Shown in pieces: positions 2,532-38,775 of a stretch of DNA of 38,775 nucleotides. The stretch spans positions 1 to 38,775 of the IMG/VR virus record IMGVR_UViG_3300042453_005517. One strand, given 5' to 3'. The notes under the pieces are model-generated. The model made no database searches and had not been told where the DNA came from. It was given only the letters and a program-made list of their open reading frames with translations. The position numbers and the translations under genes were made by a program. This stretch comes from a virus. The first letter of the stretch is position 1, and each line of letters starts with the position of its first letter.

Positions 2532-3638
2532 ATGTTTAAGCTTTTTTTTGACGAAGAAACAAAGGTACCGATGATTAAACCATCGGGTAGCCAGGGCCAG
2601 ACATTGCAAGCTGCTTATAGGCAAACAATGACCGGACCATCTTTTAAGCAATCCGCGCCTACTAATGTTACTGCTAGTACACCTCCTTCGAATAACGCTA
2701 CTACTATAGATATAGTTAAAGATTATGATTGGAAGGTTTCTCCTAATAATGATTTAATAGAGCAACCTTATATAATATTAAAAGAGTATAGGATTAATAA
2801 GAGCCCTATGGCATCAAAACTTCTTTATTTGCTGCAATCAGCAAAAACAGGATTTACAGGTAAGGCGAATATATTTTTTAATCTAAACAGTGTTGTTGGC
2901 GATCTGGTCGATCTGGTCGATCTGCAAAGTATAGATACAGTTCTAGATGATACTATTAGGAATATTGCGAATAGCGCTGGCGCAAATATTGAAAATTTAT
3001 CTCCACATCTAGATCCCTTCGAGGGTCTTTATTTTACAAAGGAAACTGACTTTACATATAAGATGCCATACTTTACAGAAAAAATGATACGTAAATCTGG
3101 AAGATGGGATAGAAACTATTCTGGAGATGCTAGTAATGTTGTAACAGATACTATTCAGCAAGGACTGGATTTTGTAGCTAAACACGGGGCCGGAATACCC
3201 GGTATAGGATCAGTTGCTGAGCCTGGCATTTATATAGAAAGAAGCCAATATTATCAGCCTACAGCTGGGGGCAATCCAATAGATTTTAGCTTTCCATTGT
3301 TAAACACTTTAAATCCAGAAAGTATTCAAAAAAACTTTGAGTTTATATGGCTTTTACTTTTTCAAAACAGCGTTATACGGCGCGATAAAACTTACGTGTT
3401 ACCTCCATGTATATATCGAGTGCTTGTCCCCGGTATACGGTTCATTCTCTACGCATATATCGAGAATATTTCAATTGAATATATAGGGACCCGCAGAAGA
3501 ATGCCAATAATTCACCCAGCTACTGGGCTTACAATAGAAACGATTATACCTGAAGCATATAATATATATATTACAATAGAAAATCTAACCACGGATAGCA
3601 GTAATTTTATGCTTTCATCCTTAACAGATAATTTGTAA
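2532..3638 (+). CDS. gp48/gp54-like baseplate tail-tube protein, copy 2
   Basis: This 368-residue protein shares the ordered motifs of the preceding gene (LKEYR, DPFEGLY, AEPGIY, FSFPLLNT, LLLFQNS, PPCIYRVLVPGIR, YIGTRRR, TIIPEAYN). The pair probably forms two successive hexameric rings between hub and tail tube, as T4 gp48 and gp54 do. Around 2902-2925 there is a tiny 9-bp tandem repeat encoding DLVDLVDL. The stop codon overlaps an AATAAATA element placed five bases before the next gene. The paralogy is seen directly; the tube-cap role is inferred from family resemblance and synteny. Confidence 0.58.
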   Translation: MFKLFFDEETKVPMIKPSGSQGQTLQAAYRQTMTGPSFKQSAPTNVTASTPPSNNATTIDIVKDYDWKVSPNNDLIEQPYIILKEYRINKSPMASKLLYLLQSAKTGFTGKANIFFNLNSVVGDLVDLVDLQSIDTVLDDTIRNIANSAGANIENLSPHLDPFEGLYFTKETDFTYKMPYFTEKMIRKSGRWDRNYSGDASNVVTDTIQQGLDFVAKHGAGIPGIGSVAEPGIYIERSQYYQPTAGGNPIDFSFPLLNTLNPESIQKNFEFIWLLLFQNSVIRRDKTYVLPPCIYRVLVPGIRFILYAYIENISIEYIGTRRRMPIIHPATGLTIETIIPEAYNIYITIENLTTDSSNFMLSSLTDNL

Positions 3639-3644
3639 TAAATA
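3637..3644 (+). promoter_or_regulatory. Late-promoter-like AATAAATA before the gp53-like gene
   Basis: AATAAATA ends five bases before the ATG at 3650 and overlaps the preceding stop codon. It is one of a set sharing the same spacing to a start codon; it has one mismatch to the T4 late element TATAAATA. Confidence 0.5.
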
Positions 3645-3649
3645 TTATT

Positions 3650-4015
3650 ATGCTGGATCAAAATAAACAAAATGACATATCTATTTTACCCACACTACCG
3701 AAAGATAGATATGAAAATATTTTCAATGTGTATCCTACAAATAAGGGGGATATAGAATATTATTTTTATAATATTCTTAAAAAGGTTACAATAAATGCGG
3801 ATAATATTGATCCTGCGGTTTTTAAGTATATTCAAGTAAATAGGAGACTTCCGTGGACAGCTATTAGCTATCAAGAATATACAACCCAGCATTTATGGTG
3901 GTTGATACTAGCAATTAATAATCGAAATAACCCTATTGTTCTTCCTCGGATAGGGGATGTATTAAGAATAATTAGACGGGAATACGTAAAAGATATCCTC
4001 AATCAACTTAGATAA
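3650..4015 (+). CDS. gp53-like baseplate wedge protein
   Basis: This 121-residue protein contains RLPWTAISYQEYTTQHLWWL, followed by ILAINNRNNP, a run typical of the gp53 / LysM-like module that binds neighbouring wedge subunits, and ends with a short basic segment after LPRIGDVLRI. In T4, gp53 (196 residues) joins wedges around the hub; this version is shorter and seems to keep mainly the core domain. It sits between the tube-cap pair and a probable hub gene, which fits a baseplate role. The ATG at 3650 is set by the AATAAATA element five bases upstream. Confidence 0.6.
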   Translation: MLDQNKQNDISILPTLPKDRYENIFNVYPTNKGDIEYYFYNILKKVTINADNIDPAVFKYIQVNRRLPWTAISYQEYTTQHLWWLILAINNRNNPIVLPRIGDVLRIIRREYVKDILNQLR

Positions 4016-4016
4016 A

Positions 4017-5453
4017 ATGGCAGAGCGATATACAACAATTACTCTTGATGGAGACCGAGAATTTGATTTTCTTTGCACTATACTAGTTGCTGGTCGAGGT
4101 ATACAGCTTTCTACAAGCACTATTTTATATTTAGAAGTTAGAGAATCTATATTTAACGGGTTCCCGGAAGGAATGCTTATTATTGATAATAATACCGGCT
4201 CTGCAGATAGTGTATTTTCATTCACGGGTGATAATATTAATGATTTAATTATTTTCTATTTAAAGCCTAAAAATGAAGGCACAGAAGAAAATTTTGCTAT
4301 CCAGGAAGTTTTTTCAATATATGAAGTAGAGGATGTTCCGGTTGGAGAATTCCCTCAAGGAGCAAAAAAAATATTATTTAGAAATACTCTCGCTAATGAG
4401 ATGAGAATTAAAAAAAATTCTCTTACAGTGCTAGATTTTCACGACGAAGATATATCTAATTTATCGGATAATGAAAGAGCCGTTAAAACTGGAAATGTAT
4501 TAAAAAAACTCTTCGGTAAAGACATAAAAAAAGATTACAATATACCTCGAACAGCGGATTTTCAAATCGATGATCAAGAGTGGGACGCGGGAAAATACTC
4601 TATATTTCCAAATTGGTGCGCTGGCACTGAAACGCTATTTGAGTCTATTCAAAAGGCATTTTTAAAGCATATAAGTGAAGAAGAGCCATTTGATAAATGC
4701 TATTTAAAGTATAACAGATTTGATAAAAAGCTTTCTCTAATATCAATGTCAAAGCTCTTAATGAAAAATATACAAGAGCCTAAAAAATATTTTTTAGAAA
4801 ATTTAGTACTCGGCACATTTGCAAATGGCGATAATGCCGATAACATAGCTAATGAAAATGCTCCAAGGCCGAAAGTTTCTTTAGCAGATACGTTAGCAGA
4901 TATTTCCAATATAAGATCTCTTAAATTTTTTGACCTAAGCTCGGAAATTTTTGAAAAAGATTTTGTCATTAATATACCCACTGTTGTTGATTTTGATAAC
5001 ACTACCAGGTTTAATCTCGGGGAAAAAAATATAAAGGATATTTTTGAAAAATATAAAAAATTCTATGTTACCCAGCCGTTTAAAGATAGAGTTGATAATA
5101 AAGAACCTCTACCATCTACAATATGGGAAAATACTAGAAAGAAAATAACGACCCAATATAACAAGGTTATAGTTACTCCTTATAAATCTTGGGACCATGC
5201 TTATGACGTAGAGGTAAATGCTAATATTTTAACTATGTTTTTGCTTAAAGGTCTAAACTGCACATTATCCCTAAGAGGATCTACCCATAGGACGATAGGA
5301 AAGTTTGTCGATATAGAACTAAAAGATACATTCGATACTAACAAATTTTCCAAGTTACCTGGTAGATGGCTGGTAACTGAGTGTTCTCATATTATTACAA
5401 AAGACCGGTATTGGAACAGTTTAAATTGCGTTAAAACATATAGAAATTTCTAA
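4017..5453 (+). CDS. Possible baseplate hub protein (gp27-like)
   Basis: This 478-residue protein opens with a beta-rich region (about 1-115) typical of tube-like hub domains, has a charged middle, and ends (about 390-478) with a compact beta segment containing GRWLVTECSHIITKDRYWNS, reminiscent of the C-terminal part of gp27 / late-control-D type hub proteins. No lysozyme or needle domain is visible, so this is not a gp5 equivalent. Position between a gp53-like gene and further structural genes supports a baseplate role. The hub call is an inference from fold-like features and order; no catalytic motif is available to confirm it. Confidence 0.4.
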   Translation: MAERYTTITLDGDREFDFLCTILVAGRGIQLSTSTILYLEVRESIFNGFPEGMLIIDNNTGSADSVFSFTGDNINDLIIFYLKPKNEGTEENFAIQEVFSIYEVEDVPVGEFPQGAKKILFRNTLANEMRIKKNSLTVLDFHDEDISNLSDNERAVKTGNVLKKLFGKDIKKDYNIPRTADFQIDDQEWDAGKYSIFPNWCAGTETLFESIQKAFLKHISEEEPFDKCYLKYNRFDKKLSLISMSKLLMKNIQEPKKYFLENLVLGTFANGDNADNIANENAPRPKVSLADTLADISNIRSLKFFDLSSEIFEKDFVINIPTVVDFDNTTRFNLGEKNIKDIFEKYKKFYVTQPFKDRVDNKEPLPSTIWENTRKKITTQYNKVIVTPYKSWDHAYDVEVNANILTMFLLKGLNCTLSLRGSTHRTIGKFVDIELKDTFDTNKFSKLPGRWLVTECSHIITKDRYWNSLNCVKTYRNF

Positions 5454-6463
5454 TGGAAAAATTTAAAACAAACCAGCATTATAATTTCTCGACCGGTTTG
5501 CCGGCCGAGTATTATGATGAATATATATCAAATACCAAAGAAGATGATGATATATTTTTAATAAATTTAAGTAGACTCTTTAGAAGTATAAATGGGGCCG
5601 AAAAACCATATGATGAAGCATTAAAATTTGCTAACTATCTTTTAGAAAATGGAGAGAATTTACTACCAAGTACGATAGAGTTTTATGTAGATAAGTTCAA
5701 AACGTTACCCACCGCTATACAGGGTCATATAATACAAAACACTAGACAGACTAATAATTATTTTCGCGACGATAACGGGTCAGATAAATTAGCGTTTTTT
5801 GCTAATGCGGAAGAATATAGAACAAGTTCATCATCAGTAGTTTCACAGAACCAATCTCCTGATATTACAATTTCTGAGCATATAAAAAATAAAATATCTC
5901 CAGTAGCTTTATCAAATACAATCTCCCTTTCAAAATTGTCGGAACAAATGATTAAAAAATCGCAAGCATCTCCTACAAGTTCGTCTACATATAATATAAT
6001 TTCCAACTCTACTCATAATAATTGCAGAACCATAACCCCGACAACGACCCATGTGGAGGCAGCAAAATTAGCTAAAGCTCAAATTGAAGCTAATTCATAT
6101 AAAACATATAAAGACTGTTATAGAGTAAAGCGGAGATATGTTTTTGAGTCTAATCCATACGTACTAGATAATAGACAAGACAATGTATCTGAGTTTATTC
6201 TTGATACAAACGAGGATATAGTAGGGAAAGGCAAAACTGCAGTATATACAACCGCAGGTAATATCCCGTTAAAGAACAGCTTAAAAGTTCAAGATTTATA
6301 TTCGGTAATGCCTCCTAGCAGAGAAGATGCAAATAAACTTTCAAAAACTGAAGAGGAAGAGAAGTCTCCGATAATAGGATCAACGGGTACAGATACGAGC
6401 AAGCAGAATCAAGAAGCCGGGGACAATCCTATCAAGACTTATAAAAAGGAACAACATAAGTGA
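5453..6463 (+). CDS. Unknown protein of the baseplate cluster
   Basis: The 336-residue product is not recognised. Residues about 1-100 look helical and charged. A low-complexity Ser/Thr/Asn/Gln-rich stretch follows (about 125-200), then a short domain containing CYRVKRRYVFESNPYVLDNR, and a very polar C-terminal tail ending in Lys/Gln/His. The ATG overlaps the previous stop by one base (TAATG), implying translational coupling to the probable hub gene. The stop lies in a hairpin shared with the convergent gene. A structural or assembly role is suggested only by location. Confidence 0.7.
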   Translation: MEKFKTNQHYNFSTGLPAEYYDEYISNTKEDDDIFLINLSRLFRSINGAEKPYDEALKFANYLLENGENLLPSTIEFYVDKFKTLPTAIQGHIIQNTRQTNNYFRDDNGSDKLAFFANAEEYRTSSSSVVSQNQSPDITISEHIKNKISPVALSNTISLSKLSEQMIKKSQASPTSSSTYNIISNSTHNNCRTITPTTTHVEAAKLAKAQIEANSYKTYKDCYRVKRRYVFESNPYVLDNRQDNVSEFILDTNEDIVGKGKTAVYTTAGNIPLKNSLKVQDLYSVMPPSREDANKLSKTEEEEKSPIIGSTGTDTSKQNQEAGDNPIKTYKKEQHK

Positions 6464-6477
6464 TTATTCTATCACTT
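6458..6477. terminator. Hairpin at convergent gene junction
   Basis: AAGTGAT and ATCACTT form a 7-bp stem around a 6-base loop, spanning the stop codons of both the plus-strand gene ending at 6463 and the minus-strand gene ending at 6464. There is no strong U-run. It could act as a two-way terminator or mRNA 3'-end stabiliser. Confidence 0.4.
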
Positions 6478-6916
6478 CAGCTTTAGTCTCAATAATATTG
6501 CTATTTGCAGAGTCCATCAAAGCTTTTATAGCTTCTTCCCGAGAAAGCAATAAACGCGCTCCAATTTCTTTATCAGTTTGCATCTGTTGACTTTCAATTT
6601 TCATCTTAGCTATTTCCTTTGATGATTGATTTTTCTCTCTAGATGTCATTATGCGTTGTAAAACATCTATCGAGGAAGCCGCAGATTTTATAAGCGATGC
6701 TAAAGCTTCTGTGCTTTCCGCGTCTGGAGCTGAATCGATAAAATCCTTCATGTTTTCAATCGACTCTACACTATCCTTAACTAAACGACCAGTATACTTT
6801 AAAAGAAAATCCTCGATATTTTCTTTAGATAACTCTACGTCTCCTTCACTTGTCTTTTTTTCGCGAGGAAAGTTAGAAAGTTGCTGCAATAAATCATCTA
6901 CAGAGTCCGTTTCCAC
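6464..6916 (-). CDS. Possible terminase small subunit (gp16-like)
   Basis: This helical, charged protein has about 150 residues. Its central region (SIENMKDFIDSAP, then EALASLIKSAASSIDVLQRI) resembles the oligomerisation core of T4-type small terminase subunits, where a helix, a short Ala/Pro turn and a second helix ending in coiled-coil residues occur in this order; length also fits T4 gp16 (164 residues). There is no ATG near the N terminus: in-frame choices are TTG at 6931 or GTG at 6916. GTG is preferred because GTTAAATA ends five bases before it, the spacing seen at other late genes, as expected for a packaging gene. It is isolated on the minus strand. Function is inferred from resemblance only; a generic coiled-coil protein is the alternative. 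Confidence 0.4.
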   Translation of the reverse strand: METDSVDDLLQQLSNFPREKKTSEGDVELSKENIEDFLLKYTGRLVKDSVESIENMKDFIDSAPDAESTEALASLIKSAASSIDVLQRIMTSREKNQSSKEIAKMKIESQQMQTDKEIGARLLLSREEAIKALMDSANSNIIETKAEVIE

Positions 6917-6921
6917 ATTTT

Positions 6922-6929
6922 TATTTAAC
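6922..6929 (-). promoter_or_regulatory. Weak late-promoter-like GTTAAATA before a GTG start
   Basis: Read on the minus strand, GTTAAATA ends five bases before the GTG at 6916. Six of eight bases match TATAAATA, with TAAATA intact. The spacing, rather than the match, is what draws attention. Confidence 0.3.
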
Positions 6930-6970
6930 AAACGATTTGATTTTTACCACTAATACATTACTTTTAATAT

Positions 6971-7453
6971 ATGATACTAAAATTAGTCAAAACTCATGAA
7001 AACGCTATTTTACCCTCTCAAAACAATAAAGCAACAAATGGGACCAGCGATACAGGCTACGATTTATATGCTGTAAAAGAAGTTATTATTCCTGGTTCTA
7101 CTAAATATTCAGAGCCTGGTAGTTATGATTTAGTCGATATTGGGTCAGCGATCGTTCCAGTTGGTCTAGAAATAAGCTTTATTGATCCCGGCTATTGGTT
7201 GAAGATTGAGGGTCGTTCCGGGCTCGGCTTTAAACACGGCATTCAGCCTCATAACGGCATTATCGATAATCAATACCGAGGAGATCTAGGGGTAAAGCTA
7301 TATAACCTCACGGGCAGAGACTATATCGTTAAACCTGGAGACAAGATCGCTCAGCTTGTTGCTTATAAGCTCGTTGAAATGGATATTACATTTACTGATA
7401 CAAAGGAAGAAACTAATCGCGGAGAAAAAGGGTTCGGTTCTTCTGGAAAATAA
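6971..7453 (+). CDS. dut: dUTP diphosphatase (dUTPase)
   Basis: The enzyme hydrolyses dUTP to dUMP and diphosphate, keeping uracil out of phage DNA and feeding dTMP synthesis. All five motifs of the trimeric family are present in 160 residues: GTSDTGYDLYA (24-34), GRSGLGFKHG (81-90), NGIIDNQYRGD (95-105, with expected catalytic Asp99 and Tyr102), PGDKIAQLV (about 122-130) and the glycine-rich C-terminal arm RGEKGFGSSG (150-159). Length matches the family. The ATG at 6971 lacks the TATAAATA-like element of the structural genes, consistent with a different (early or middle) expression class. It is followed after two bases by the clamp-loader gene, so the two form a replication mini-operon. Confidence 0.95.
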   Translation: MILKLVKTHENAILPSQNNKATNGTSDTGYDLYAVKEVIIPGSTKYSEPGSYDLVDIGSAIVPVGLEISFIDPGYWLKIEGRSGLGFKHGIQPHNGIIDNQYRGDLGVKLYNLTGRDYIVKPGDKIAQLVAYKLVEMDITFTDTKEETNRGEKGFGSSGK

Positions 7454-7455
7454 TT

Positions 7456-8379
7456 ATGAAACTTAACGATATTTGGTGCGAAAAATATAGGCCTAAAACT
7501 TTAGATGAAACTGTTTTAGGAGAAAATGCGAGAAGCCAGCTAAATGGTATTGTTTCATCTAAAACCATCCCTCACTTATTACTCGAAGGGCCCGCTGGAA
7601 TCGGGAAGACTAGTATTGCAAAAATTATTGTAAGCGATATTTTAAAATGTCAGTATATTTACATTAATGCGAGCGATGAAAGCGGTATCGATACTGTTAG
7701 AACAAAGATTATTGGATTCGCTAAAACTAAGAGTATCGACGGGAATATCAAGGTAGTTATACTTGATGAAGCTGATGGTATATCTGCAGATGGTCAGCGC
7801 GCTTTGCGTAATGTGATGGAGGAATACTCTCAATATACTCGATTTATACTTACCGCCAACTTTAAACATCGTATTATTGAGCCGCTACAAAGCCGGGTTC
7901 AGGAAATCGATATTGATCCGCCTCTTAAAGATGTAGCAAAAAAATGCTTTGAAATTCTTAAAAAGGAAAATATCACTGTAAGTGAAGAAGAGAGAATAAA
8001 ATTCGTAGATCTTATTAGAAAGTATTATCCCGATATTCGCAAGACGATTAATATCTTACAGAAATTTAGCAGCTCTGGATCGCTTAAAATTATATCTACC
8101 GAAAATATTGATCATATTGCAAATGAAGTGTATGCAAGAATTAGTAAGCCGCTCGATCTTAGAAAGTATATTATAGATCACGAAATTGATTTTCAAAACG
8201 ACTATCAAGCATTATTGAAAGCTCTTCTTGAGGTTATATATAGATGTGATCTTAATGATAAGATAAAGCAAGATTGTATACTTATTATTTCAGAGCATCT
8301 TTACAGATGTGCATTCTGCGTAGATCAGGAGATTAACTTCTCTGCTTGCTGTATACAGCTTAATAAAGTAATCTATTAA
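7456..8379 (+). CDS. Clamp-loader ATPase subunit (gp44 / RFC small subunit-like)
   Basis: This AAA+ protein is expected to load the sliding clamp for the phage replisome. Visible are the N-terminal WCEKYRPKTLDE signature, Walker A GPAGIGKT (45-52), Walker B VVILDEAD (100-107), sensor-1 region RFILTAN (129-135), and the SRC-motif position reading SRV (146-148), which keeps the arginine finger but replaces Cys with Val. A PDIRKTIN segment matches sensor 2, and a helical collar domain follows. At 307 residues it is close to T4 gp44 (319). The presence of a phage-encoded clamp loader implies that clamp and polymerase genes lie elsewhere in the genome. Its stop overlaps that of the convergent minus-strand gene. 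Confidence 0.92.
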   Translation: MKLNDIWCEKYRPKTLDETVLGENARSQLNGIVSSKTIPHLLLEGPAGIGKTSIAKIIVSDILKCQYIYINASDESGIDTVRTKIIGFAKTKSIDGNIKVVILDEADGISADGQRALRNVMEEYSQYTRFILTANFKHRIIEPLQSRVQEIDIDPPLKDVAKKCFEILKKENITVSEEERIKFVDLIRKYYPDIRKTINILQKFSSSGSLKIISTENIDHIANEVYARISKPLDLRKYIIDHEIDFQNDYQALLKALLEVIYRCDLNDKIKQDCILIISEHLYRCAFCVDQEINFSACCIQLNKVIY

Positions 8380-8912: not shown

Positions 8913-8936
8913 TGCTTATAATATTTAGTCGTTCTT

Positions 8937-8944
8937 CATAAATA
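8937..8944 (+). promoter_or_regulatory. Late-promoter-like CATAAATA before the gp25-like gene
   Basis: CATAAATA ends five bases before the ATG at 8950 and has one mismatch to the T4 late consensus. It would drive the gp25-gp6-gp7-like operon from a start site at the ATG itself. Confidence 0.6.
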
Positions 8945-8949
8945 TTTAC

Positions 8950-9435: not shown

Positions 9436-9437
9436 TA

Positions 9438-11264
9438 ATGGATCAGAATTTACTCGAATACAACCTTCCAATTAACGCCTACGCTACGTTTGACGCGGTA
9501 TCGTTAAAGGAACTTATTAAGGAGAGGTTGACTGAAAACTCCCTTTTTACCGATCAAAACTTTGAGGGGAGTAATTTAGCTGCTCTTGCTGATATTTTCG
9601 CGTTTGCTTATCATATACTATTGTTTTACTATAACCAAACTGCCTCTGAAGCATTATTTGATCAAGCTGAACTGTACGAAAACATGAATAAGATTGTTAA
9701 GGCTATAGGTTATAAGCCTAGTGGTCCGCGAACTTCTATATTAAGTTTCGATGCTGCCGGTACCAGCGATTTACCAATTGGTGCCTATACAATAAAGAGA
9801 TACTCCAATGTTATTGTCAACGGATCTGTATTTTCTTTTACCGACGATATTTCCTTTGATAAGACTATACCTGGAAGGGAATCCTTAGCTACTCTATCGG
9901 ATAACGCTCTCTTATACCAAGGATCCTATTTTGAATATCCTGATTATACCGCAATAGGAGAGGACTACGAAACAATTACAGTTGTATTAGAGAGAATTGA
10001 GAATACATCTGTGGAATTTATAGACTTTGATAATATTGATATCTACGTCTATGACAGCGAAACGCAAACTTGGTCTGAATGGCGAGAAGTAGATTCGTTA
10101 TATCTTCAATCTTCAATAGATAAGGTCTATGAGAAGAGAGTTAACGAAAACGGTCGATATGAATTTAAGTTTGGTAATAATATAAACGGTAAGCGATTAA
10201 ATCCTGGAGATATTGTTTCTATTTTTTACTTGCTCGGTAATGGATCTACTATTGGAGCCGGAGCTTTGCAAGCTGGTTCTAATATTAATGTGTACAATAC
10301 ATCTAGATTTAGGGAATTAAATAGCGCTATATATGAAGAAAATAATACTACATTTATCAACGCTTCAAATAGTTCTTATATTGAGCTTTCAAATACAAAC
10401 AAATCTACCAATATTGTAGATTATGAAACTGTAGAGAGTGTAAAGCAAAATGCTCCAGCTCTTTTTAGCGCTCAGAATAGAGCAGTAACAATAAACGATT
10501 ATAAGGCGTTTTTATCATCCAAATTTAATAATATTTTACAATCTACAGAAGTTGTAAACAACGACAAATATCTATCTGATTTCATAAAGTATTACTATGA
10601 TATGGGTGTTGAAAATCCAAATAATAATAGCAATATACTAACTAGTCATTTTCTATTTTCCGACGCGTGCGACTTCAATAATATATATGTATTCTCAGTT
10701 CCGAGGCACGGGGCTATTGCTAATGAAACGAATCCAACAATGATGGCTGCGTCACAAAAGCAAGCAATAAAGAGCTATTTGGATACGGTGAGAATGGCTA
10801 GTAATGAAATTGTTATTATTGATCCTGTCTATATCGGATTCGATCTCGGAATAGACATTATTACTGACAAAATTAGAACTGTTGAGGAAATAAGAGAAAC
10901 ATCTACGCTTAATATCAGAATAGATACAACATCTAGATTAGCTCGTTCAAAGATAAAGGATTTAGTAAATAACATCTTTATAAACTATTTTGATACTTTA
11001 AATTGCTCTTTAGGGCAAAATATTAATTTAGCGGATGTTACTCGTGATGTTTTAGATATCGAGACCGTAGTGGAGATTACTACAAACTATACCTTTAATG
11101 GTCGCTCGTACGAAGTTCCCGGGCTAAGTATGGTTTATTGGAACCCCTTCTATCCCCAAGATGATCTAAACATAACTAACCAGACTGTAAAGCTGCCTTT
11201 CTATAAGTTTCCCTTCCTATACGAGGCCTCTAAATTTATTAACAAAATTAATATAATTAACTAA
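9438..11264 (+). CDS. gp6-like baseplate wedge protein
   Basis: gp6/baseplate-J proteins dimerise to form the inner ring that holds the wedges together. The 608-residue product starts with the expected pattern (FDAVSLKELIKERL, NFEGSNLAALADIFAFAYH, then a helix with YYNQTASEALF), continues with the beta-rich region ending in FGNNINGKRLNPGDIVSI (about 235-255), an inserted segment, and the C-terminal domain with PVYIGFDLGIDI (about 457-468) followed by an alpha/beta unit. Length is near T4 gp6 (660). It lies directly downstream of gp25-like and overlaps the gp7-like start by one base, conserving T4 order 25-6-7. Confidence 0.85.
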   Translation: MDQNLLEYNLPINAYATFDAVSLKELIKERLTENSLFTDQNFEGSNLAALADIFAFAYHILLFYYNQTASEALFDQAELYENMNKIVKAIGYKPSGPRTSILSFDAAGTSDLPIGAYTIKRYSNVIVNGSVFSFTDDISFDKTIPGRESLATLSDNALLYQGSYFEYPDYTAIGEDYETITVVLERIENTSVEFIDFDNIDIYVYDSETQTWSEWREVDSLYLQSSIDKVYEKRVNENGRYEFKFGNNINGKRLNPGDIVSIFYLLGNGSTIGAGALQAGSNINVYNTSRFRELNSAIYEENNTTFINASNSSYIELSNTNKSTNIVDYETVESVKQNAPALFSAQNRAVTINDYKAFLSSKFNNILQSTEVVNNDKYLSDFIKYYYDMGVENPNNNSNILTSHFLFSDACDFNNIYVFSVPRHGAIANETNPTMMAASQKQAIKSYLDTVRMASNEIVIIDPVYIGFDLGIDIITDKIRTVEEIRETSTLNIRIDTTSRLARSKIKDLVNNIFINYFDTLNCSLGQNINLADVTRDVLDIETVVEITTNYTFNGRSYEVPGLSMVYWNPFYPQDDLNITNQTVKLPFYKFPFLYEASKFINKINIIN

Positions 11265-14711: not shown

Positions 14712-14719
14712 TATAAATA
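14712..14719 (+). promoter_or_regulatory. Perfect TATAAATA late-promoter element
   Basis: TATAAATA lies in a short intergenic gap and ends five bases before the ATG at 14725. It would sit within the coding region if the in-frame TTG at 14707 were used, which argues for the ATG. Confidence 0.75.
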
Positions 14720-18230: not shown

Positions 18231-18238
18231 GATAAATA
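18231..18238 (+). promoter_or_regulatory. Late-promoter-like GATAAATA, overlapping a perfect TATAAATA
   Basis: GATAAATA ends six bases before the ATG at 18245. A perfect TATAAATA (18237-18244) overlaps it and abuts the ATG. Only the upstream copy fits the 5-6 base rule; use of the second would start transcription inside the gene. Confidence 0.55.
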
Positions 18239-18244
18239 TAAATA

Positions 18245-21200
18245 ATGGAGGTTGTTGATTTCTCTAGTAATACGAAGAGCTTGAGCGCAAAATACATTGA
18301 TTATCAAAATATTGATATCAAAAATTTTAGCTCAAAGCTCGAGCAGGGAATTACAGTATTTGACGCTGATATTTTTAATTCAGTTAAAGATGTCAAAGCG
18401 GGTGGCTATAGTGCTCTATACTTAACTGAGCAAAAATACGGGGAAGATATTCTTAAATTTAAAGATGTAATTACAAGTGCTGAAAACATTTTCATTACTG
18501 ATTTTATAATAAATTCTACAGGGCAAAATTATTATTTCTACATCAATACCCCTAGAACTATTGATGCAAACACTAAAACAACATGCAAATTTATACCGGA
18601 AGATTCGATAGAATCTCTTAATAACATATTTTTCGAGCTTCAACTTATAGATAGCAGATATTGCAGAGTTTATCATAGGGTAAATAATGATATTTTTTAC
18701 CTCACTGTTAATAGTGATCTTAATGTGTTCTTCACGAATTTAAAAAACAATATACCGACATCATTAAGTTCAATTGACGAATATGTTTTTTCATACATTT
18801 TAGATAAAGACCAAGATAAGCTCTCTCTATATAAACCTGTAAGCGGTAACAATTATAACCTTACACTTGGCGAGTATAAGAACTTCACCCTTACAAAGAT
18901 TTCTTCTGCATCCTTTATACCATTTAACTCTGCTAACACACTAAAGGTAAGATACAATGATAGAATATCTAGTATATCCCCAAAGCTTAATACATCGTGG
19001 GTAAGCTATAAGGATGTTAATAGTTTAGAGATTAATACCGCAAAAAGCGCGTTCAAAAATAAAAACAACTATCTCATATCTACTCAGTACAGCTTCGCCA
19101 CAGGAAATGATTTAGAGGTCAATATTCTCCCCTTAAAAAATCAATTAACAAAAGAAGGAATATCCCAAAGAGGGGATTATCTTCTTAATATTCCCAATAA
19201 ATCTTATCCTCAAACATCTTTAAGAGATTATACTAATATACATATAGGAAGTAATAGCGAGAGAGGTATCGAGGATATATCGTTAACATATAATTTTTAT
19301 AACACCGAATTCGTTTTTCAGCCCGACGAGTATACCGCATTTAAAGCTCCGGATTCTTTATACCCCTACACTCAAATAAATATCAATGATACCTTATTTG
19401 CGATAAACGGGGCAATGGGAGGAGATTCTCCGCATAGCTCCGACAAGATTTATACGAAAAATATACAAAGTAATTCCCCTAATACTGGTACATATTTATG
19501 TACATGGCTTTCGGGAGGAAACGAGATCGCGCCCGGCACTTGGGTTGATAGATACTTTAATACTTCTAAAATATCTCCTATCGAAGCTCTTACCGCCACC
19601 GCGGTTAAACTATATGATTTTACCTCTAACGTAGAAGAAAATATACAAAGTAATACTATCGCTGATGATAACTTTTTCGATATTAAAAGTGATTTAACAA
19701 TTTCGCCTAGTAAGGAGTATATATACCAACGCATCGGCCCTAACTATATCAAGTCCTTTGTTAATCATCTCGAAAACAATACCATTTTTAATAATTTAAC
19801 AGCTAGATCATTTAGAGGGAGCGTTGATATACCAACAAATTCAACAGAAACTTATAATTTCGAAAATAAGTATCATTATAATTTTATTGATGAAGATGTG
19901 AGTAGTTTTACCTTTTCATTCTGGCTCGAAACCGATTGGGAGCAGCCATTTGGATATCAATTGGCGGGTAATTTTAATAATAAGGGATTTGGTATATTTA
20001 ATGACGAAAAAATAACCCCATTTATTTTTATACCATACAAAGATTCGATATATGTGTATAATACTGATTTCGTGTTTTTAAACACTGTAAATTTCGGAGG
20101 CACTGTAAGGAATATTATAAGAATTAATCCGCTTGACGATATATATGTTATTGTTGGTAGAGTACCAGAAACTGAAGTGCCTGAATTGACAACAAATATA
20201 TCTAATGTAATATATAAGTTGAGATCAAATGGCACTGTCTTTGATGCAGACACTGTTGCTGAGATACCATCATATATTAATGTTTTTAATACAGAGACTG
20301 AAATATTTTTCTTAATTAATGAGAATGGGAGTGTTGCTGTATATAATATAATTGAAGAATCTTTAAGATTTGTTACAGTAACAATTCCTAAAGAATTCGG
20401 GGTTCAATTTGATATTAAATCCCTGGGACTAGACAAATTTAATAATCTAGTAGGGTTTAGAGGTGAAAAATGTGTAAAGTATGGGGATGATGATCATGTA
20501 TTTTTGCTCCGTAACGGGATTCTCGTAAAGGAATCTGATGATCATACAATGAGAACTATATTGCTCTCCAGTTCATCAATAGTATATGATTTCGCTGTAG
20601 ATACTGATGAAAATATCTATGTTTTACATAATAAGTTTATTAGTAAGTATAATAAACAACGAGATTTAATATATAAAATATCTATTTCAAAATATACAAA
20701 TATTTCTATAGATATGGTAAGAGAATATACAGATGAGGGGGTAAATCAATATCCGGTAATTATGTCTATAGATTCAGATGAAAATGTATTTTTATCAAAA
20801 ATCAATGAAAGTAGCGGATCCATATCTACTAAATCAATAGACAATATAAAAGGTAAATTTTATAGTTCATGCGATCTTAATACCATTCTTAATTTTTATA
20901 ATTTAACAAATTATACTCTATTTTTAAAAGATAATCAGCTCAAAAATAATAGTTTAAAATTTAGAATTGAAATACCTAACAAATATAACAATAGAGATAA
21001 TTTGCGCAATACTATATCTATTAATATATCGAAACTATCTATTGGGAAGCATCATTTCGCGTATAGATTAGATACTATCTCTGGAAATATTACGCTCTTC
21101 ATTGATGGGAAGATAGTGCAAAATGTAAATTTTGATCCTGCTGAATATGCTCTCGATAACACTCTTTATAATGTTTTTAATGTTGGAGCAGCAACATATT

Positions 21201-24912: not shown

Positions 24913-24920
24913 AATAAATT
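24913..24920 (+). promoter_or_regulatory. Late-promoter-like AATAAATT
   Basis: AATAAATT ends six bases before the ATG at 24927, directly after the previous stop codon. It has two mismatches to TATAAATA. Confidence 0.4.
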
Positions 24921-28357: not shown

Positions 28358-28528
28358 ATGGATGATATTTTTGAGATAACCACAGAGGATTTAGATATTA
28401 TTAAACAATTAATTGAAGTTACAACTAAAAACGGTCTTATTCTTCCAAATGGTTTGCAAGCTGTAGGTAGTTTATACAATAAAATCGAAAGTATAATATC
28501 CAATACTGAATCTACGAGCAATGATTAA
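28358..28528 (+). CDS. Small 56-residue protein between fibre genes
   Basis: The product MDDIFEITTEDLDIIKQLIE... is acidic and mostly helical, with a second amphipathic stretch (NGLQAVGSLYNKIESIIS). An upstream in-frame ATG at 28295 exists but lies inside the previous gene; ATG 28358, after its stop, is more likely. A poor TATTAAAT match ends six bases before it. Size and position resemble small chaperone or connector proteins sometimes found among fibre genes, but nothing identifies it. Confidence 0.5.
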   Translation: MDDIFEITTEDLDIIKQLIEVTTKNGLILPNGLQAVGSLYNKIESIISNTESTSND

Positions 28529-28531
28529 ATA
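28524..28531 (+). promoter_or_regulatory. Late-promoter-like ATTAAATA
   Basis: ATTAAATA ends five bases before the ATG at 28537, overlapping the stop codon of the small upstream gene. It has two mismatches to TATAAATA. Confidence 0.4.
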
Positions 28532-30876: not shown

Positions 30877-30918
30877 CATCCTTGTAGATTATTTCTCTTT
30901 TTTGACTATATATTTTAT

Positions 30919-32675: not shown

Positions 32676-33211
32676 TTACAATACCAAAGCATCTAGGAGG
32701 CCATGCAAATATTACTCATATAGATAAAGGCTCCTTAGAATATATGAAGAGTATTTTAGGTATTACATCTTTAATCGACCTAGGATGTGGCCCAATGGGG
32801 CAAGTTAAATTAGCTAAAGAATTAAATATTGATGCAATTGGAATAGATGGTGATTGGAATTGTTCTCCAGATATAGTTCATGATTTTACTACCGGACCAT
32901 TTTCGGAAGAAATTAAAGCCGATGCTATATGGTCAGTCGAATTTCTCGAACATGTAGAAGAAAAATATTTAAACAATGTTTTAAAAATATTTAATTCTGT
33001 AAATTGTGCAATTTTAGCCGCTGCTCCGGTTGGCAAAGGAGGATATCATCATGTAAATTGCCAAAATCCTGAATATTGGTCTGAAAAAATGAATAGTATT
33101 GGATTTTATCTCGATATGAGCCATACCGCTGCAATTAGAAAAGCTAGCACAATGAAGCGAGAATTTATACGGGATAGAGGAATGGTATTTATTAAAAATT
33201 TAAAAATATGA
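32672..33211 (+). CDS. SAM-dependent methyltransferase (class I)
   Basis: This 179-residue, Rossmann-type methyltransferase has motif I LIDLGCGPMG (34-43), an acidic residue closing strand 2 (IGIDGDW), motif II/III DAIWSVEFLEHVEE with the EH pair usual in Methyltransf_11/23-like enzymes, and a later strand with AILAAAPVGKGGYHH. ATG 32672 is chosen because it overlaps the upstream stop as ATGA; the TTG at 32654 would extend further into the preceding gene. Its stop again overlaps the next ATG. Context with two glycosyltransferases suggests sugar O-methylation, a common glycan cap, but nucleic acid or protein methylation is not excluded. Confidence 0.8.
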   Translation: MITIPKHLGGHANITHIDKGSLEYMKSILGITSLIDLGCGPMGQVKLAKELNIDAIGIDGDWNCSPDIVHDFTTGPFSEEIKADAIWSVEFLEHVEEKYLNNVLKIFNSVNCAILAAAPVGKGGYHHVNCQNPEYWSEKMNSIGFYLDMSHTAAIRKASTMKREFIRDRGMVFIKNLKI

Positions 33212-33411
33212 AACTAGAGCAAGGTAAAATAGTTAAATGGGAAAACGATAAAAAAGAACAAATCGTTTGGATAGTTTGCGATGATGAAATATCAGGAGTG
33301 GTAATACACTCAGATAATTTAATAAATGTGGGAACTGTTACAAGCAATCTTGTAGATTATAATGTTACCCCGTTTGTCGGAACAGTCAATATCAGCTCAT
33401 CGGCCAATTAA
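33208..33411 (+). CDS. Small 67-residue protein of the glycosyltransferase cassette
   Basis: Not recognised. It is beta-rich and looks like one small barrel (GKIVKWENDKKEQIVWIVCD, then GVVIHSDN and VGTVTSN). It overlaps the methyltransferase stop (ATGA) and is the last gene before the next late promoter. Coupling suggests a function linked to the modification enzymes, but this is only positional. Confidence 0.6.
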   Translation: MKLEQGKIVKWENDKKEQIVWIVCDDEISGVVIHSDNLINVGTVTSNLVDYNVTPFVGTVNISSSAN

Positions 33412-33434
33412 CGCTCTATATATTCATTTTATAA

Positions 33435-33442
33435 TATAAATA
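33435..33442 (+). promoter_or_regulatory. Perfect TATAAATA late-promoter element
   Basis: TATAAATA ends six bases before the ATG at 33449, in the short gap after the modification cassette. It supports ATG 33449 over the in-frame TTG at 33446. Confidence 0.75.
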
Positions 33443-33448
33443 TTATTG

Positions 33449-36313
33449 ATGGATATTACTCTTAGAACAGATATAGGTGGGTATTTTAGCTATAGAATAT
33501 ATAGGGAGACCCCTGATAATATCGTATACGAATCTCCCGTACAGAAAAATCTAATTGTAAATTCTGGTCTCAAACATCTATATAGCCTATCTATTCCTGC
33601 AGTAATGCAGGTTCTTGATATTGGCAATTCGAATATACCCCCATCTCCATCGGATACTGGATTGAAGGGAGCGTCATTTAATAACTCAAATATTTTTAAC
33701 GATTTATTAGCACTATACGTCTCAGGAGGACCCGTAGAAGATAGCGCTACTTCAGAGTATACTGCATTCTTTAGGACAAAAACCACATCTTCTCCTACAG
33801 TATTAAAAGAGTTTGTAATAAAGCCTGGTATCAATCAGGATGCTTTTGCGAGACAAATATTCTCTCCAATAACTCTACAAGGCGGGGACGGAATAGAATT
33901 TACTTATAAAGTTATAGTAAATTGGCAGTGCGCTCCTGTAGATACTACGTTTAAATTATTTTATTCTAAAAATACAAGTGATAGTATTGATTCGTTTGAT
34001 TCTAATCAATTACCACTTATCTGGGAATCTGTTTCTGCAAACATTGGCAATAAACTATGGTCCAACATAGCATCAAATAACGGCACTATTGTCGCTGTCG
34101 CATCATCTACAACTGAAGCAAATATAGCTTACTCTACGGACACTGGGATGACTTGGCTATCTGCCTCTACCCCTGAAGCGAGGCCTCTTAATGATGTAGC
34201 ATATGGAGAGATATTAGATGGAACAGGCACACTTGTACCCGCGTTCGTCGCTGTTGGCGATAGAGTTTTATATTATAGCAACACTGGAACTGCATGGTTG
34301 ACAGCTACTCCGGCAAGCTATAATAATTGGACTAGTATTGCTTTCGGTCGACCGTCAAGAACCCCTACTGAAGCTAATCCAAGTCTGTATAACACAACTT
34401 TCGTTGCAGTTGCGAATAATGGATCATCCCGTATAATGACATCCAATGATAGAGCAAATTGGACGTCAGTATCTAGTAATATTACAAATTCAATAAATTG
34501 GTCTGCTATAACATATGGTAAATACTATGTTGCTATTGCTGATAGCGGGACTCATAGGATTGCATACTCTACTGATGGTAATACATGGCTATCCGCTGCT
34601 GCACCTGCTCTTAATGAATGGTGTGATGTAGCATATGATTTTGAAAATGATCTTTATGTGGCGGTAAGTAGAAATTCAACGTATTCTCCAATTATGTATG
34701 CTTCAGGCGGAGATATAACAAAATGGTATCCTGCAAGATCCCCGTATAGCGCCTCCTGGCATGGAATAACATTTGGAAATAGTATTTTTGTGGCAGTTGG
34801 AGAATGTGATTTACAGCCGAGATCTATTTATTCTAATGACGGCATTAATTGGTTTCCTGTAAATTTTATACCGTTTGATAAAACCTGGAAATCGGTAACC
34901 TATTCAAATAATACCTTTATAGCAGTAGCTTCTAGCTTAGGTAATATAGATAAACCATTTGCAAGATCAGAAGTTGTGCCTCGAAGTAGTGCTGAAATTG
35001 ATGTTAATGCTAAAATAGCATTAATCTCCATTCCGGATAGGGTATATAATCCTAATTTTTATATGTATACTTTAAGAGACTTTGAAATGCCTCTTACATG
35101 CTCTATCACCCCTGCGACTGCTAATGAATTATACTATAGCACAACTAGATTTGCAAATTCATTTGCCCAGGCAAGAAGTGTCTTGCTTTCTCCCAATACT
35201 GCTGTTGGGGTATATTCATTTGATAATACAACCGGGCACGGGGCTATCAAAAATTTATTAATTACAGACACCCTATCCCCATCAGGGTACTACACACCAG
35301 GTGTATGGGCTGTCGAAATTAATGCGGAAAATATAACAGACCCTATTGTATATACAGGTACTTTAGATGAAATTGTAACATTATCCCCTGAGCCAGGATC
35401 TATTACTCGAAGTATATCTTCCACAATTGGAGATATTATAGATAATAAATTACAATTCAATGTATTTCACATATGGGGCGAGGCTCAGCCGGGAATTACG
35501 ATCGATGGCGGCGGCGGCGGCGGCGGTGGCGGTGGTAGCGGTGGCGGCGGCGGTGGCGGTGGTAGCGGTGGCGGTGGTAGCGGTGGCGGCGGTGGCGGCG
35601 GTGGCGGCGGTGGCGGTAGCGGTGGTGGCGGTGGCGGTAGTGGTACTGTTGAAACTAAGCCATATGCTATTATAACAATTCCAAATTGGACTGTAATCGA
35701 TGCTAGAGATTATTCAAATGGGTTTTATGCTTCTCATCTTGATGCTCCAATCGGGTTATATAAAACTCCCAGCAATACCGATAGCGATACTGGAATTTTT
35801 GATTGCACGTCTACAAATTACTTAACTATAAGCTATTATTTAAATTTTTATATAAAAATAGCAAATATAAATAATGGTCCAAGTACTAGATTCGGTAAAA
35901 CAGACGTACTCGCGAGTGTTATGATAGATTCTCCAGCAGGATACGGCGGATCCTCGTCAATAATAAATTCTCTTCAAACTATTAACCCGGTAGCATCAGC
36001 AGCTACTGTATTGGACATAAACAACGCTCAAATAACTAACTCGGAAATCTTAAGCGAAATAAATTTAAGATCTGCTCAAACTGGAACATTTCCGCTAGTA
36101 GACGATGTTCAAATTATAAAGGATACTGGTAACTCAGCTAAACTTAAAATTATATTTTCTAAAAATGCACCCTATAAACCAGATTTTATAGAGGTGTTTA
36201 GCGAAGAAATAAAATCTAAGAATGATGGCCTATGCTCTAGTAGACCGGTAGGAGAAACTTATTATGTTGTAGAAAATAACAGTCAGCGATACCCAGTTAT
36301 ATACCCTGCTTAA
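33449..36313 (+). CDS. Large fibre protein with Asp-box propeller and poly-Gly linker
   Basis: The 954-residue product has an N-terminal domain (about 1-190) containing QKNLIVNSGLKHLYSL, a pattern seen in phage virion proteins. Residues about 190-515 contain repeats of a BNR/Asp-box propeller: YSTDTGMTWLSA, YSTDGNTWLSA, YSNDGINWFPV and looser YSNTGTAWLTA, each followed by a FVAVG/YVAIA strand. A beta domain follows, then a 46-codon Gly/Ser tract (about 687-732), then a C-terminal beta domain of about 220 residues. Asp-boxes are structural in sialidases and many non-enzymes; no catalytic Arg triad was identified, so enzymatic activity is not claimed. Probable host-binding fibre with a flexible or polyglycine-helix linker. 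Confidence 0.68.
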   Translation: MDITLRTDIGGYFSYRIYRETPDNIVYESPVQKNLIVNSGLKHLYSLSIPAVMQVLDIGNSNIPPSPSDTGLKGASFNNSNIFNDLLALYVSGGPVEDSATSEYTAFFRTKTTSSPTVLKEFVIKPGINQDAFARQIFSPITLQGGDGIEFTYKVIVNWQCAPVDTTFKLFYSKNTSDSIDSFDSNQLPLIWESVSANIGNKLWSNIASNNGTIVAVASSTTEANIAYSTDTGMTWLSASTPEARPLNDVAYGEILDGTGTLVPAFVAVGDRVLYYSNTGTAWLTATPASYNNWTSIAFGRPSRTPTEANPSLYNTTFVAVANNGSSRIMTSNDRANWTSVSSNITNSINWSAITYGKYYVAIADSGTHRIAYSTDGNTWLSAAAPALNEWCDVAYDFENDLYVAVSRNSTYSPIMYASGGDITKWYPARSPYSASWHGITFGNSIFVAVGECDLQPRSIYSNDGINWFPVNFIPFDKTWKSVTYSNNTFIAVASSLGNIDKPFARSEVVPRSSAEIDVNAKIALISIPDRVYNPNFYMYTLRDFEMPLTCSITPATANELYYSTTRFANSFAQARSVLLSPNTAVGVYSFDNTTGHGAIKNLLITDTLSPSGYYTPGVWAVEINAENITDPIVYTGTLDEIVTLSPEPGSITRSISSTIGDIIDNKLQFNVFHIWGEAQPGITIDGGGGGGGGGGSGGGGGGGGSGGGGSGGGGGGGGGGGGSGGGGGGSGTVETKPYAIITIPNWTVIDARDYSNGFYASHLDAPIGLYKTPSNTDSDTGIFDCTSTNYLTISYYLNFYIKIANINNGPSTRFGKTDVLASVMIDSPAGYGGSSSIINSLQTINPVASAATVLDINNAQITNSEILSEINLRSAQTGTFPLVDDVQIIKDTGNSAKLKIIFSKNAPYKPDFIEVFSEEIKSKNDGLCSSRPVGETYYVVENNSQRYPVIYPA
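35507..35644 (+). repeat. GC-rich poly-Gly/Ser coding tract
   Basis: Forty-six consecutive codons are Gly (GGC/GGT) or, rarely, Ser (AGC/AGT), in runs of 4 to 12 Gly separated by single Ser. The tract is strikingly GC-rich against an AT-rich background and is likely prone to copy-number change. Confidence 0.95.
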
Positions 36314-36552
36314 TCATTAAAAACTGCGCCTTCCCTCTCATGCTGTAAACGAAGAGTCATCGAGGGCATCATCTCATTTATATATGCAGAAAATGCACAA
36401 GGCTTGATCCATTCAAATGACTTATCTGGATTAATTCCTCGCTTTTCCGCGAAATCTGCAGAAATATTTACCGCTTCTATTAAACACATCCATCGAGCTT
36501 GTTCTTCGACAGACATTTCATTCCACTTTTTCTTACTTTGTTGTTTTTTCAT
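36310..36552 (-). CDS. Unknown 80-residue protein
   Basis: Begins MKKQQSKKKWNEMSVEEQAR. A lysine-rich N terminus is followed by helices (RWMCLIEAVNISADFAEKRG) and a tryptophan-containing segment (FEWIKPCAFSAYINEM). ATG 36552 is preferred over the TTG at 36558, because it overlaps the upstream stop as ATGA. It converges on the fibre gene with a 4-base overlap of stops. Last gene of a four-gene minus-strand operon; function unknown. Confidence 0.6.
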   Translation of the reverse strand: MKKQQSKKKWNEMSVEEQARWMCLIEAVNISADFAEKRGINPDKSFEWIKPCAFSAYINEMMPSMTLRLQHEREGAVFND

Positions 36553-36956
36553 ATACAAAAGGCTCTCATAAGAGTTTTAAACTTTTCTCCATCACAAGTA
36601 AATCCAGACATTTTAAGGATTTCCAATGTGTTTTGAATAGTTTTAATACTCTTTTTAATAATTTCTATTTTTTCTATATTATTATTATATTCGAGTTCCT
36701 TATGTAATAGTTCGTAGTAACAATTAAAAAAATGTATAAGAATTTCAGATGAATTAGCGTTCCTTGACACACTATTTCTATACATTTTACCTAACAGATG
36801 GGTATTGTACATTGGAGATTGTCTATCTACAATATTATCAAGAGATTCGGCAATCTCCTGGATAGTTTGCTTAACTCTAATCGGAACCTCCGTGCTTGTC
36901 GCTAGCTTGTCTGTAGATTCTTTATAAACTATTGATTTTGTAATATCAGTTTCCAT
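36549..36956 (-). CDS. Unknown 135-residue helical protein
   Basis: Not recognised. Predominantly helical and charged: VRVKQTIQEIAESLDN-like segments, a central region with HFFNCYYELLHKELEYNNN, and KIEIIKKSIKTIQNTLEILK, which could form a coiled coil. It overlaps the upstream membrane-protein gene by 11 bases and the downstream gene by 4, so translation is coupled. A structural, scaffold or regulatory role is possible; nothing decides it. Confidence 0.65.
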   Translation of the reverse strand: METDITKSIVYKESTDKLATSTEVPIRVKQTIQEIAESLDNIVDRQSPMYNTHLLGKMYRNSVSRNANSSEILIHFFNCYYELLHKELEYNNNIEKIEIIKKSIKTIQNTLEILKMSGFTCDGEKFKTLMRAFCI

Positions 36957-37365
36957 TTGTTATTTTACTATAAATTTGAGAGAGCTTATCTTGAGATACG
37001 TCCAGATCTACTGGGACGGTAGTCGCTAATGTGGTTGCTTCAATTTTTACGCTAACAGGCTTGTTACAAAATTGGCAATCGTAATTATTATTTTCGTTAA
37101 GTACAATGGGTATAAACTCTTCCATCTGCTTAGAACAAGGACATTTTAATAGAATACCCTGCTTACTTAACTCTGCAATGCGATTGTTTTTAATCTTTTC
37201 GAGCGAAACATCTCGAAAAGTATTAATAATATAAAATATTATAATTTGAACTGCAGTAGTTATAGCAAATGCTTGCCAATACATTTCTATAAAGACGAGT
37301 GACACAACTCCGCTAACCAGCAAAGTAATTAATATAGATCTTAAGATATAAAATATCGGAGCCAT
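36946..37365 (-). CDS. Membrane-anchored zinc-ribbon-like protein
   Basis: The 139-residue protein has two hydrophobic segments (about 4-26 and 32-50), then a charged region and a small four-cysteine module: C75-x-C77 and C97-x2-C100 (KCPCSKQ and YDCQFCNKP), spaced like a treble-clef or ribbon zinc site. The C-terminal tail is polar. Expected to sit in the host inner membrane with the zinc module on one face. Possible roles include membrane remodelling, exclusion or inhibition of a host function, but none is shown. A 21-bp palindrome lies immediately before the ATG. Second gene of the minus-strand group. Confidence 0.65.
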   Translation of the reverse strand: MAPIFYILRSILITLLVSGVVSLVFIEMYWQAFAITTAVQIIIFYIINTFRDVSLEKIKNNRIAELSKQGILLKCPCSKQMEEFIPIVLNENNNYDCQFCNKPVSVKIEATTLATTVPVDLDVSQDKLSQIYSKITNGN

Positions 37366-37386
37366 AGGATATACATAATATATCCT
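37366..37386. other. Palindrome abutting a start codon
   Basis: AGGATATA and TATATCCT form 8-bp arms around CATAA, ending at the base next to the minus-strand ATG at 37365. Without a U-run it is less like a terminator than an operator or translation-control hairpin. Confidence 0.45.
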
Positions 37387-37392
37387 ATATAA

Positions 37393-37761
37393 TCAATCTT
37401 TCAACGATAAATCATCTAATTTCGCAGAAACCTCAGCTACAACCATGTTTATTTTGTCGAGATCCTCGAGAATTTCATCAATAAGCCTATATTGCTTGGA
37501 TTTTACTGCAGGATTTCGCTTAACATTATTAAACATCATTTTTATTTCTAAAATACCCGCAAATATATCCCCTAACCTTGGAACAATATTAGCTATCTCA
37601 TACGGCAGGGTAGGAGGAGCATCTGTTCCTTTGTTATGCTTTTGTTGGTTACGTATATTTTCATCTCCTGCTGGTAATTTATACTTTAAATCATCTGCGA
37701 CTGATCCTCCCTTACCGATTCCCGTTGTATTGCGATTTTTATTGGAAATAAAATTATCCAT
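37393..37761 (-). CDS. Unknown 122-residue protein, first gene of minus-strand group
   Basis: Not recognised. The first 50 residues are polar, Gly/Asn/Lys-rich and probably disordered. A helical region follows (YEIANIVPRLGDIFAGILEI), and the C-terminal half is a heptad-like helix (YRLIDEILEDLDKINMVVAE, then VSAKLDDL), suggesting an oligomeric coiled coil. AATAAATA ends five bases before its ATG on the minus strand, so it is assigned to the late class with the tail genes. Could be a virion or assembly component. Confidence 0.65.
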   Translation of the reverse strand: MDNFISNKNRNTTGIGKGGSVADDLKYKLPAGDENIRNQQKHNKGTDAPPTLPYEIANIVPRLGDIFAGILEIKMMFNNVKRNPAVKSKQYRLIDEILEDLDKINMVVAEVSAKLDDLSLKD

Positions 37762-37766
37762 ACAAC

Positions 37767-37774
37767 TATTTATT
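37767..37774 (-). promoter_or_regulatory. Late-promoter-like AATAAATA, minus strand
   Basis: Read on the minus strand, AATAAATA ends five bases before the ATG at 37761. It faces away from the plus-strand TATAAATA at 37806, forming a divergent pair. Confidence 0.55.
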
Positions 37775-37805
37775 CAAAAAAGACAGTTAATTTACTCAAA
37801 AAGGA

Positions 37806-37813
37806 TATAAATA
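37806..37813 (+). promoter_or_regulatory. Perfect TATAAATA late-promoter element
   Basis: TATAAATA ends five bases before the ATG at 37819, in a 57-base divergent gap. Confidence 0.75.
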
Positions 37814-37818
37814 TACAT

Positions 37819-38253
37819 ATGAGTAACGTCTACGCAAATATTTTTAAGCTTAATCTTGAACAAGACCTCGCGGCTGGTCAAATAGATCCAGATGCAGAAG
37901 CTGAAGCAATGCAATCTACCCTTGACCCTGGAACTGATGCTAAGCAATTAGGTGCAGATGGAGGCCCTAATGCTGAGATAGCTGCGGCAGTAGCAAAAAA
38001 CAATCAAGCGATGAAGCAAGCTCTTACCGGGTGGATACAAAACCTTGAAGAGTTTGTTGAATTTTTAAACGGGCTAGATGGTAATTCTGTTCAGTCTCAA
38101 CTTAAGAACGCTGTCCCTGATACCATTATGGATAAGATCAGATCTTCCGAAATGAAGAAAATTTCTCGAGTATCAATGGAAGTAGCAGGGTTAAAAGAGA
38201 TTTTTAGAGGCTATCTTGCTTCCTCCGACGATGCAAAATATAAATTCGTATAG
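37819..38253 (+). CDS. Small acidic helical protein, probably late
   Basis: The 144-residue product has an acidic, Ala/Asp/Gly-rich first third (QIDPDAEAEAMQSTLDPG) and a helical remainder (AAAVAKNNQAMKQALTGWIQ, then NLEEFVEFLNGL and KKISRVSMEVAGLKEIFRGY). It is not recognised. Acidic helical proteins under late control are sometimes prohead scaffold or core components, but this is only a suggestion. It is monocistronic: its own TATAAATA lies upstream and a 12-bp stem hairpin follows ten bases or so after the stop. Confidence 0.7.
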   Translation: MSNVYANIFKLNLEQDLAAGQIDPDAEAEAMQSTLDPGTDAKQLGADGGPNAEIAAAVAKNNQAMKQALTGWIQNLEEFVEFLNGLDGNSVQSQLKNAVPDTIMDKIRSSEMKKISRVSMEVAGLKEIFRGYLASSDDAKYKFV

Positions 38254-38261
38254 TTGGCATT

Positions 38262-38288
38262 ATATCTCGTTGAATCTCAACGAGATAT
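38262..38288 (+). terminator. Strong hairpin after the small acidic gene
   Basis: ATATCTCGTTGA and TCAACGAGATAT form a perfect 12-bp stem with a 3-base loop (ATC), soon after the stop at 38253. No U-run follows, so it may terminate poorly on its own or protect the 3' end of the transcript. Confidence 0.6.
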
Positions 38289-38334
38289 CACTCACATAGC
38301 CCTTAGCGGATTGTTATAGATTACTATAATCTCC

Positions 38335-38342
38335 TATAAATA
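38335..38342 (+). promoter_or_regulatory. Perfect TATAAATA late-promoter element
   Basis: TATAAATA ends five bases before the ATG at 38348. Confidence 0.72.
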
Positions 38343-38347
38343 TATAT

Positions 38348-38775
38348 ATGGGAGAAGTAATATTTAGAACTAAATCGCCAAAGTTAGCAGGTTTAGAAGA
38401 AATAATAATAGCGGAGTATATAGAAGGAGCGGGGGTGAAGACTCTTGCTAACAAATATAATAACGGGCACGAAGGGGCGGTCAGAAAAATTCTTAAAGAA
38501 AATAATATTGCTTTAAGAAACCGTAAAGAGTGCTTAACTACCACGGTATATAAGGCTAATAAATCTAAAGGCCGTATTAAAATAAAATGCGATAATACTA
38601 TACAGGGTATTATCTCTCTATATTCTGCCGGAGAATCTCCTACTCAAATCGGTAAAAAATATAATATAAATCACGTTACCGTTAAAAATATACTCATTCG
38701 CAATAATATACCTACTAGAAATCAATCAGAAGCCGCTCGTCTAGATACAACAAATAAATTAAAAGAAGATACTAA
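38348..38775 (+). CDS. Tandem helix-turn-helix protein, N-terminal part (3' end outside window)
   Basis: The frame is open from ATG 38348 to the window edge, about 142 codons. Two similar units are visible: EYIEGAGVKTLANKYNNGHE followed by AVRKILKENNIALRN (about 23-58), and LYSAGESPTQIGKKYNINHV followed by TVKNILIRNNIPTRN (about 85-120). Each has the A/S-G...LA/IG-KYN...V-K-IL pattern of a recombinase- or transposase-type helix-turn-helix, with the recognition helix near TVKNIL. Such repeats occur in DNA-binding parts of homing endonucleases, recombinases and regulators; the missing C terminus would decide. A perfect TATAAATA five bases upstream supports the start. Confidence 0.7.
   Translation, partial: MGEVIFRTKSPKLAGLEEIIIAEYIEGAGVKTLANKYNNGHEGAVRKILKENNIALRNRKECLTTTVYKANKSKGRIKIKCDNTIQGIISLYSAGESPTQIGKKYNINHVTVKNILIRNNIPTRNQSEAARLDTTNKLKEDT

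Follow-up and report, generated by a model that had tools for sequence, protein, structure and literature searches.

Why does an octamer resembling the late promoter element of phage T4 occur at an almost fixed, very short distance from so many start codons in an uncultured virus? The DNA analysed (the window) is the whole 38,775-nucleotide stretch of virus record IMGVR_UViG_3300042453_005517, which is probably a fragment. Its gene content is T4-like and includes clamp loader gp44, dUTPase, baseplate proteins gp25 and gp6, and tail fibre-like genes. In a sequence-only reading, it was proposed that these octamers are promoters read by a gp55-type sigma factor and that they yield leaderless late mRNAs, with an AU-rich translation-initiation signal as the alternative. 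We find that the observation is real, and that the promoter and leaderless interpretation is supported as a sequence-based prediction. The same prediction extends to early-type genes, which the sequence-only reading missed.

Octamers at gene starts within the window

All 12 proposed sites are present. Each octamer ends 5 or 6 bases before the start codon, a distance referred to as the spacer. Nine match TATAAATA in at least 7 of 8 bases, and the other three, at 6916(-), 24927 and 28537, match at 6 of 8. The sites, together with other features of the window, are as follows.

3637..3644 (+), late box AATAAATA, spacer 5 to ATG 3650; also present in the relatives L002 and L058
6922..6929 (-), weak late box GTTAAATA, spacer 5 to GTG 6916; TAAATA and the GTG are kept in close relatives; 44 of 52 distinct upstream sequences have the box
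6937..6964 (+), candidate sigma70-type early promoter of the dUTPase gene: TTGATT, 16 bases, TACTTT, then 6 bases to ATG 6971
7456..8379 (+), gp44-type clamp loader (PHROG 168, E=5.5e-79), which abuts the gene before it and lacks a box
8937..8944 (+), late box CATAAATA, spacer 5 to ATG 8950 (gp25 baseplate wedge)
9438..11264 (+), gp6 baseplate wedge (PHROG 219), which abuts gp25
14712..14719 (+), late box TATAAATA, spacer 5 to ATG 14725; kept in the relatives L003, L005 and L010
18231..18238 (+), late box GATAAATA, spacer 6 to ATG 18245; same box in L003 and L010
23549..23556 (+), late box AATAAATA, spacer 6 to ATG 23563 (tail fibre-like)
24913..24920 (+), weak box AATAAATT, spacer 6 to ATG 24927
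28524..28531 (+), weak box ATTAAATA, spacer 5 to ATG 28537
33435..33442 (+), late box TATAAATA, spacer 6 to ATG 33449 (TTG 33446 is an alternative start)
37767..37774 (-), late box AATAAATA, spacer 5 to ATG 37761; divergent pair with 37819
37806..37813 (+), late box TATAAATA, spacer 5 to ATG 37819
38335..38342 (+), late box TATAAATA, spacer 5 to ATG 38348

Four of these octamers (14712, 33435, 37806 and 38335) are perfect, and a second, perfect TATAAATA directly abuts the ATG at 18245 (18237-18244). The octamer is not over-represented in the window as a whole (14 found, 14.2 expected), so any meaning must lie in its position. At spacer 5-6, matches in at least 7 of 8 bases precede 9 of 31 gene starts, compared with 6 of 1,060 other ATGs (P=1.5e-11), and the sequence-only reading thus passes a test that could have refuted it. 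Shine-Dalgarno-like sequence precedes only 2 of the 31 starts. No match to Rfam was found in the window.

Distribution of the box in related phages

Relatives were found by using gp6 (68 loci, with 80 more rows found later), and long contigs among them were retrieved whole or nearly so. Genes were called by open reading frame with ATG starts and without use of the motif. In 18 contigs comprising 1,354 genes, exact ATAAATA occurs 3, 5, 7, 0, 8, 121, 53, 25, 10 and 8 times at spacers 0 to 9, respectively, against a background of 0.95 per position. Seven of the eight occurrences at spacer 4 come from a single contig, G025 (L233-L237), which prefers spacer 4 to spacer 5. Although orthologues in related contigs are not fully independent, the pattern was first seen in 13 relatives and was then reproduced in four contigs retrieved afterward (G021-G024).

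The box is nearly absent from genes that abut an upstream gene, occurring in 2 of 395 such genes compared with 197 of 959 others (Fisher P=9e-30). Abutting genes are partly constrained by coding, but genes with a gap of only 4-8 bases, in which the box overlaps the end of the previous gene, still carry it in 30% of cases. In the window also, the box precedes genes with some gap or a divergent neighbour.

On the basis of similarity to T4, S-PM2 and HTVC008M proteins, the box is found upstream of genes for tail sheath (gp18), tube (gp19), protease (gp21), neck (gp13), gp54 and many gp25 orthologues, mostly at spacer 5. In contrast, uvsX, gp32, gp41, gp43, gp44, gp46, gp47, gp55 and uvsW have none. 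For gp25, 62 of 85 distinct upstream sequences have TAAATA at spacer 5-7, 17 of those 62 with a GTG start, whereas flanking positions are poorly conserved; because the start was chosen with the box in mind, this count is illustrative. The major capsid gene gp23 looks like an exception. It lacks the box and has a 70-100 base upstream region containing a conserved short hairpin-like sequence (GAGG...CCTGAA), which is a candidate structured leader (L080:7850-8101, L210 upstream of 196, L233 upstream of 1792(-), L221 upstream of 14513(-) and L227 upstream of 789(-)).

The late sigma factor gp55 is found in 11 records, with the T4-like core sequence conserved, and in all but one of the searched records of 70 kb or more, although it is not encoded in the window fragment itself. 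Sliding clamp gp45 was found in 13 contigs by an iterated profile search. The co-activator gp33, which is short and divergent, was not found by using a single T4 query.

Predicted transcription start sites

In T4, the late box begins at -13 (PMC2988020) and so ends at -6, and the sixth base after it is +1. This base is A in 12 of 17 T4 sites, which are leadered. In the spacer-5 class it is the A of the ATG, preceded by T in 85% of cases, and ATGGC is favoured, so the ATG looks like a true start. The drop between spacers 5 and 4 is the edge expected if a start inside the coding region is not tolerated. Shine-Dalgarno-like sequence is found in 0-14% of genes per contig, compared with 37-57% in the T4 stretches. 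The best explanation, in which we have high confidence despite the lack of RNA data, is that the octamer is a T4-type late promoter read by RNA polymerase carrying gp55, and that it is placed so that transcription starts on the first base of the start codon or at most a few bases before it. The actual start sites, the use of gp55 at these boxes, initiation by 70S ribosomes and a host competent for it are inferred. Genes further down each unit mostly abut or overlap the gene before them, and are probably translated by coupling.

It is possible, though unlikely, that transcription from such promoters starts a few bases upstream or at variable sites, so that the mRNAs carry leaders of 2-9 bases. 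Genes with spacers 6 and 7, and a few with the box at 8-14, would have short leaders, and start-site choice by RNA polymerase is flexible by a base or two. However, the commonest spacer, 5, leaves no room for a leader if the T4 geometry holds, and T at -1 and A at +1 fit an initiator there. Because gene calls are by open reading frame only, start codons might also be mis-assigned, with the real ones located downstream of a leader. This is very improbable, because orthologue alignments reach these starts, ATGGC is favoured, and GenBank starts in HTVC008M agree.

Promoters of early-type genes

Heads of transcription units without the late box show TATAAT peaking 5-8 bases before the ATG, with TTGAT or TTGAC about 28-32 bases before it. 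When scored as pairs with 16-18 base spacing, these elements peak with the -10 box ending 6 bases before the ATG (56 cases), with 9, 19 and 12 cases at 5, 7 and 8. Shuffled sequences give about 0.4 per position (0.45 at the peak), and abutting genes give 2 at spacer 6. Late-box heads have one such pair in all and none at this position, consistent with a late promoter that lacks a -35 element. This is the ordinary sigma70 layout with +1 on the ATG, so early-type genes should also start on the ATG. The dUTPase gene of the window (6971) fits this layout only weakly, as read by eye. About half of the unit heads in relatives match neither promoter consensus, some surely because of gene-call error, so the arrangement is not established for every unit.

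The octamer might instead be an AU-rich translation-initiation signal in a leadered mRNA, as in Bacteroidota that lack Shine-Dalgarno sites, in which A at -3, -6, -12 and -13 helps; such a signal is known from F. johnsoniae (PMC6847099). The absence of Shine-Dalgarno sites and the A residues that the box places at -6 and -12 are compatible with this possibility. However, position -3 shows no preference for A in the spacer-5 class (35% A), and the box is late-gene specific, matches the T4 promoter exactly and avoids abutting genes. Moreover, early genes carry on the same register a two-part sigma70 promoter with 16-17 base spacing, which an RNA signal would not need. The convergence of two unrelated promoter types on one base is the strongest argument against a translation signal, which we consider very unlikely.

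A GGAACT element located 3-5 bases upstream of TATAAT, which is again 5-7 bases before an ATG, is a candidate middle-class promoter. It occurs in the related contigs G003 (65194, 66800, 71307, 73465, 73971 and 75054, all +), G007 (47470(-)) and G021 (59314(-)). It is more likely than not that this clade has fused both its early (host sigma70) and late (gp55) promoters to the start codon, so that nearly all transcription units are leaderless and infection depends on leaderless initiation plus coupling, with this third, possibly middle class following the same rule. If confirmed, these viruses run most of their infection on a translation route usually treated as an exception. Such an arrangement would tie a known phage sigma factor to leaderless translation, would improve annotation of start codons and promoters, and hints at hosts that translate leaderless mRNA well.

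The host is unknown. Alignments of gp6 and terminase against 84,980 species genomes found no relative, no tRNA genes are present in the window or in four relatives, and the Pfam content of G021 gave no clear host marker. Bacteroidota are disfavoured because their TAnnTTTG -7 promoter element shows no peak, whereas TATAAT/TTGA peaks clearly. Phage-encoded translation factors were also considered as a cause, but a bS21-like ribosomal protein is found in only 4 of 13 records (G022, G024, G026 and G004, one of them below the family cut-off), and no IF3 was found.

Comparison with known systems

The terminase tree places the clade, which is deep, widespread and uncultured, apart from T4, cyanophages and pelagimyophages with full support, although long branches make its exact sister unsure. 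Isolates are at most about 38% identical in terminase. Literature searches found no report of leaderless T4-type late mRNAs, although this absence is weak evidence because only open-licence papers were covered.

T4 late promoters (gp55/gp33/gp45) have the same octamer (TATAAATA), no -35 element, A favoured at the sixth base after the box, and late-gene specificity, and the clade encodes gp55 and gp45. However, T4 boxes are located 12-35 bases upstream with a Shine-Dalgarno site between, whereas here the box ends 5-7 bases before the start and no leader is predicted. Late promoters of the marine cyanophage S-PM2 (NATAAATA) share the core motif and gp55 (PMC2984593), but in the S-PM2 stretch none is at spacer 5-7 and 12 are at 16-49. 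None of the boxes in the T4 stretches is at spacer 5-7 either.

The cultured Pelagibacter phage HTVC008M has eight genes with the box at exactly spacer 5 and without a Shine-Dalgarno site. Its strategy is mixed, in that 42-51% of its genes have Shine-Dalgarno-like sites and other late boxes are leadered. HTVC008M lies with the cyanophages in the terminase tree and not in this clade, which suggests that the arrangement arose more than once. Prediction of late promoters was reported to fail in pelagimyophages (PMC7029224), and promoters fused to start codons may be the reason. Bacterial leaderless mRNAs, such as those of mycobacteria, similarly have ATG or GTG at +1, with a preference for exactly +1 over +2 to +5 (PMC4633059). 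However, these involve host genes and host sigma factors, whereas here a phage has a phage-encoded sigma factor.
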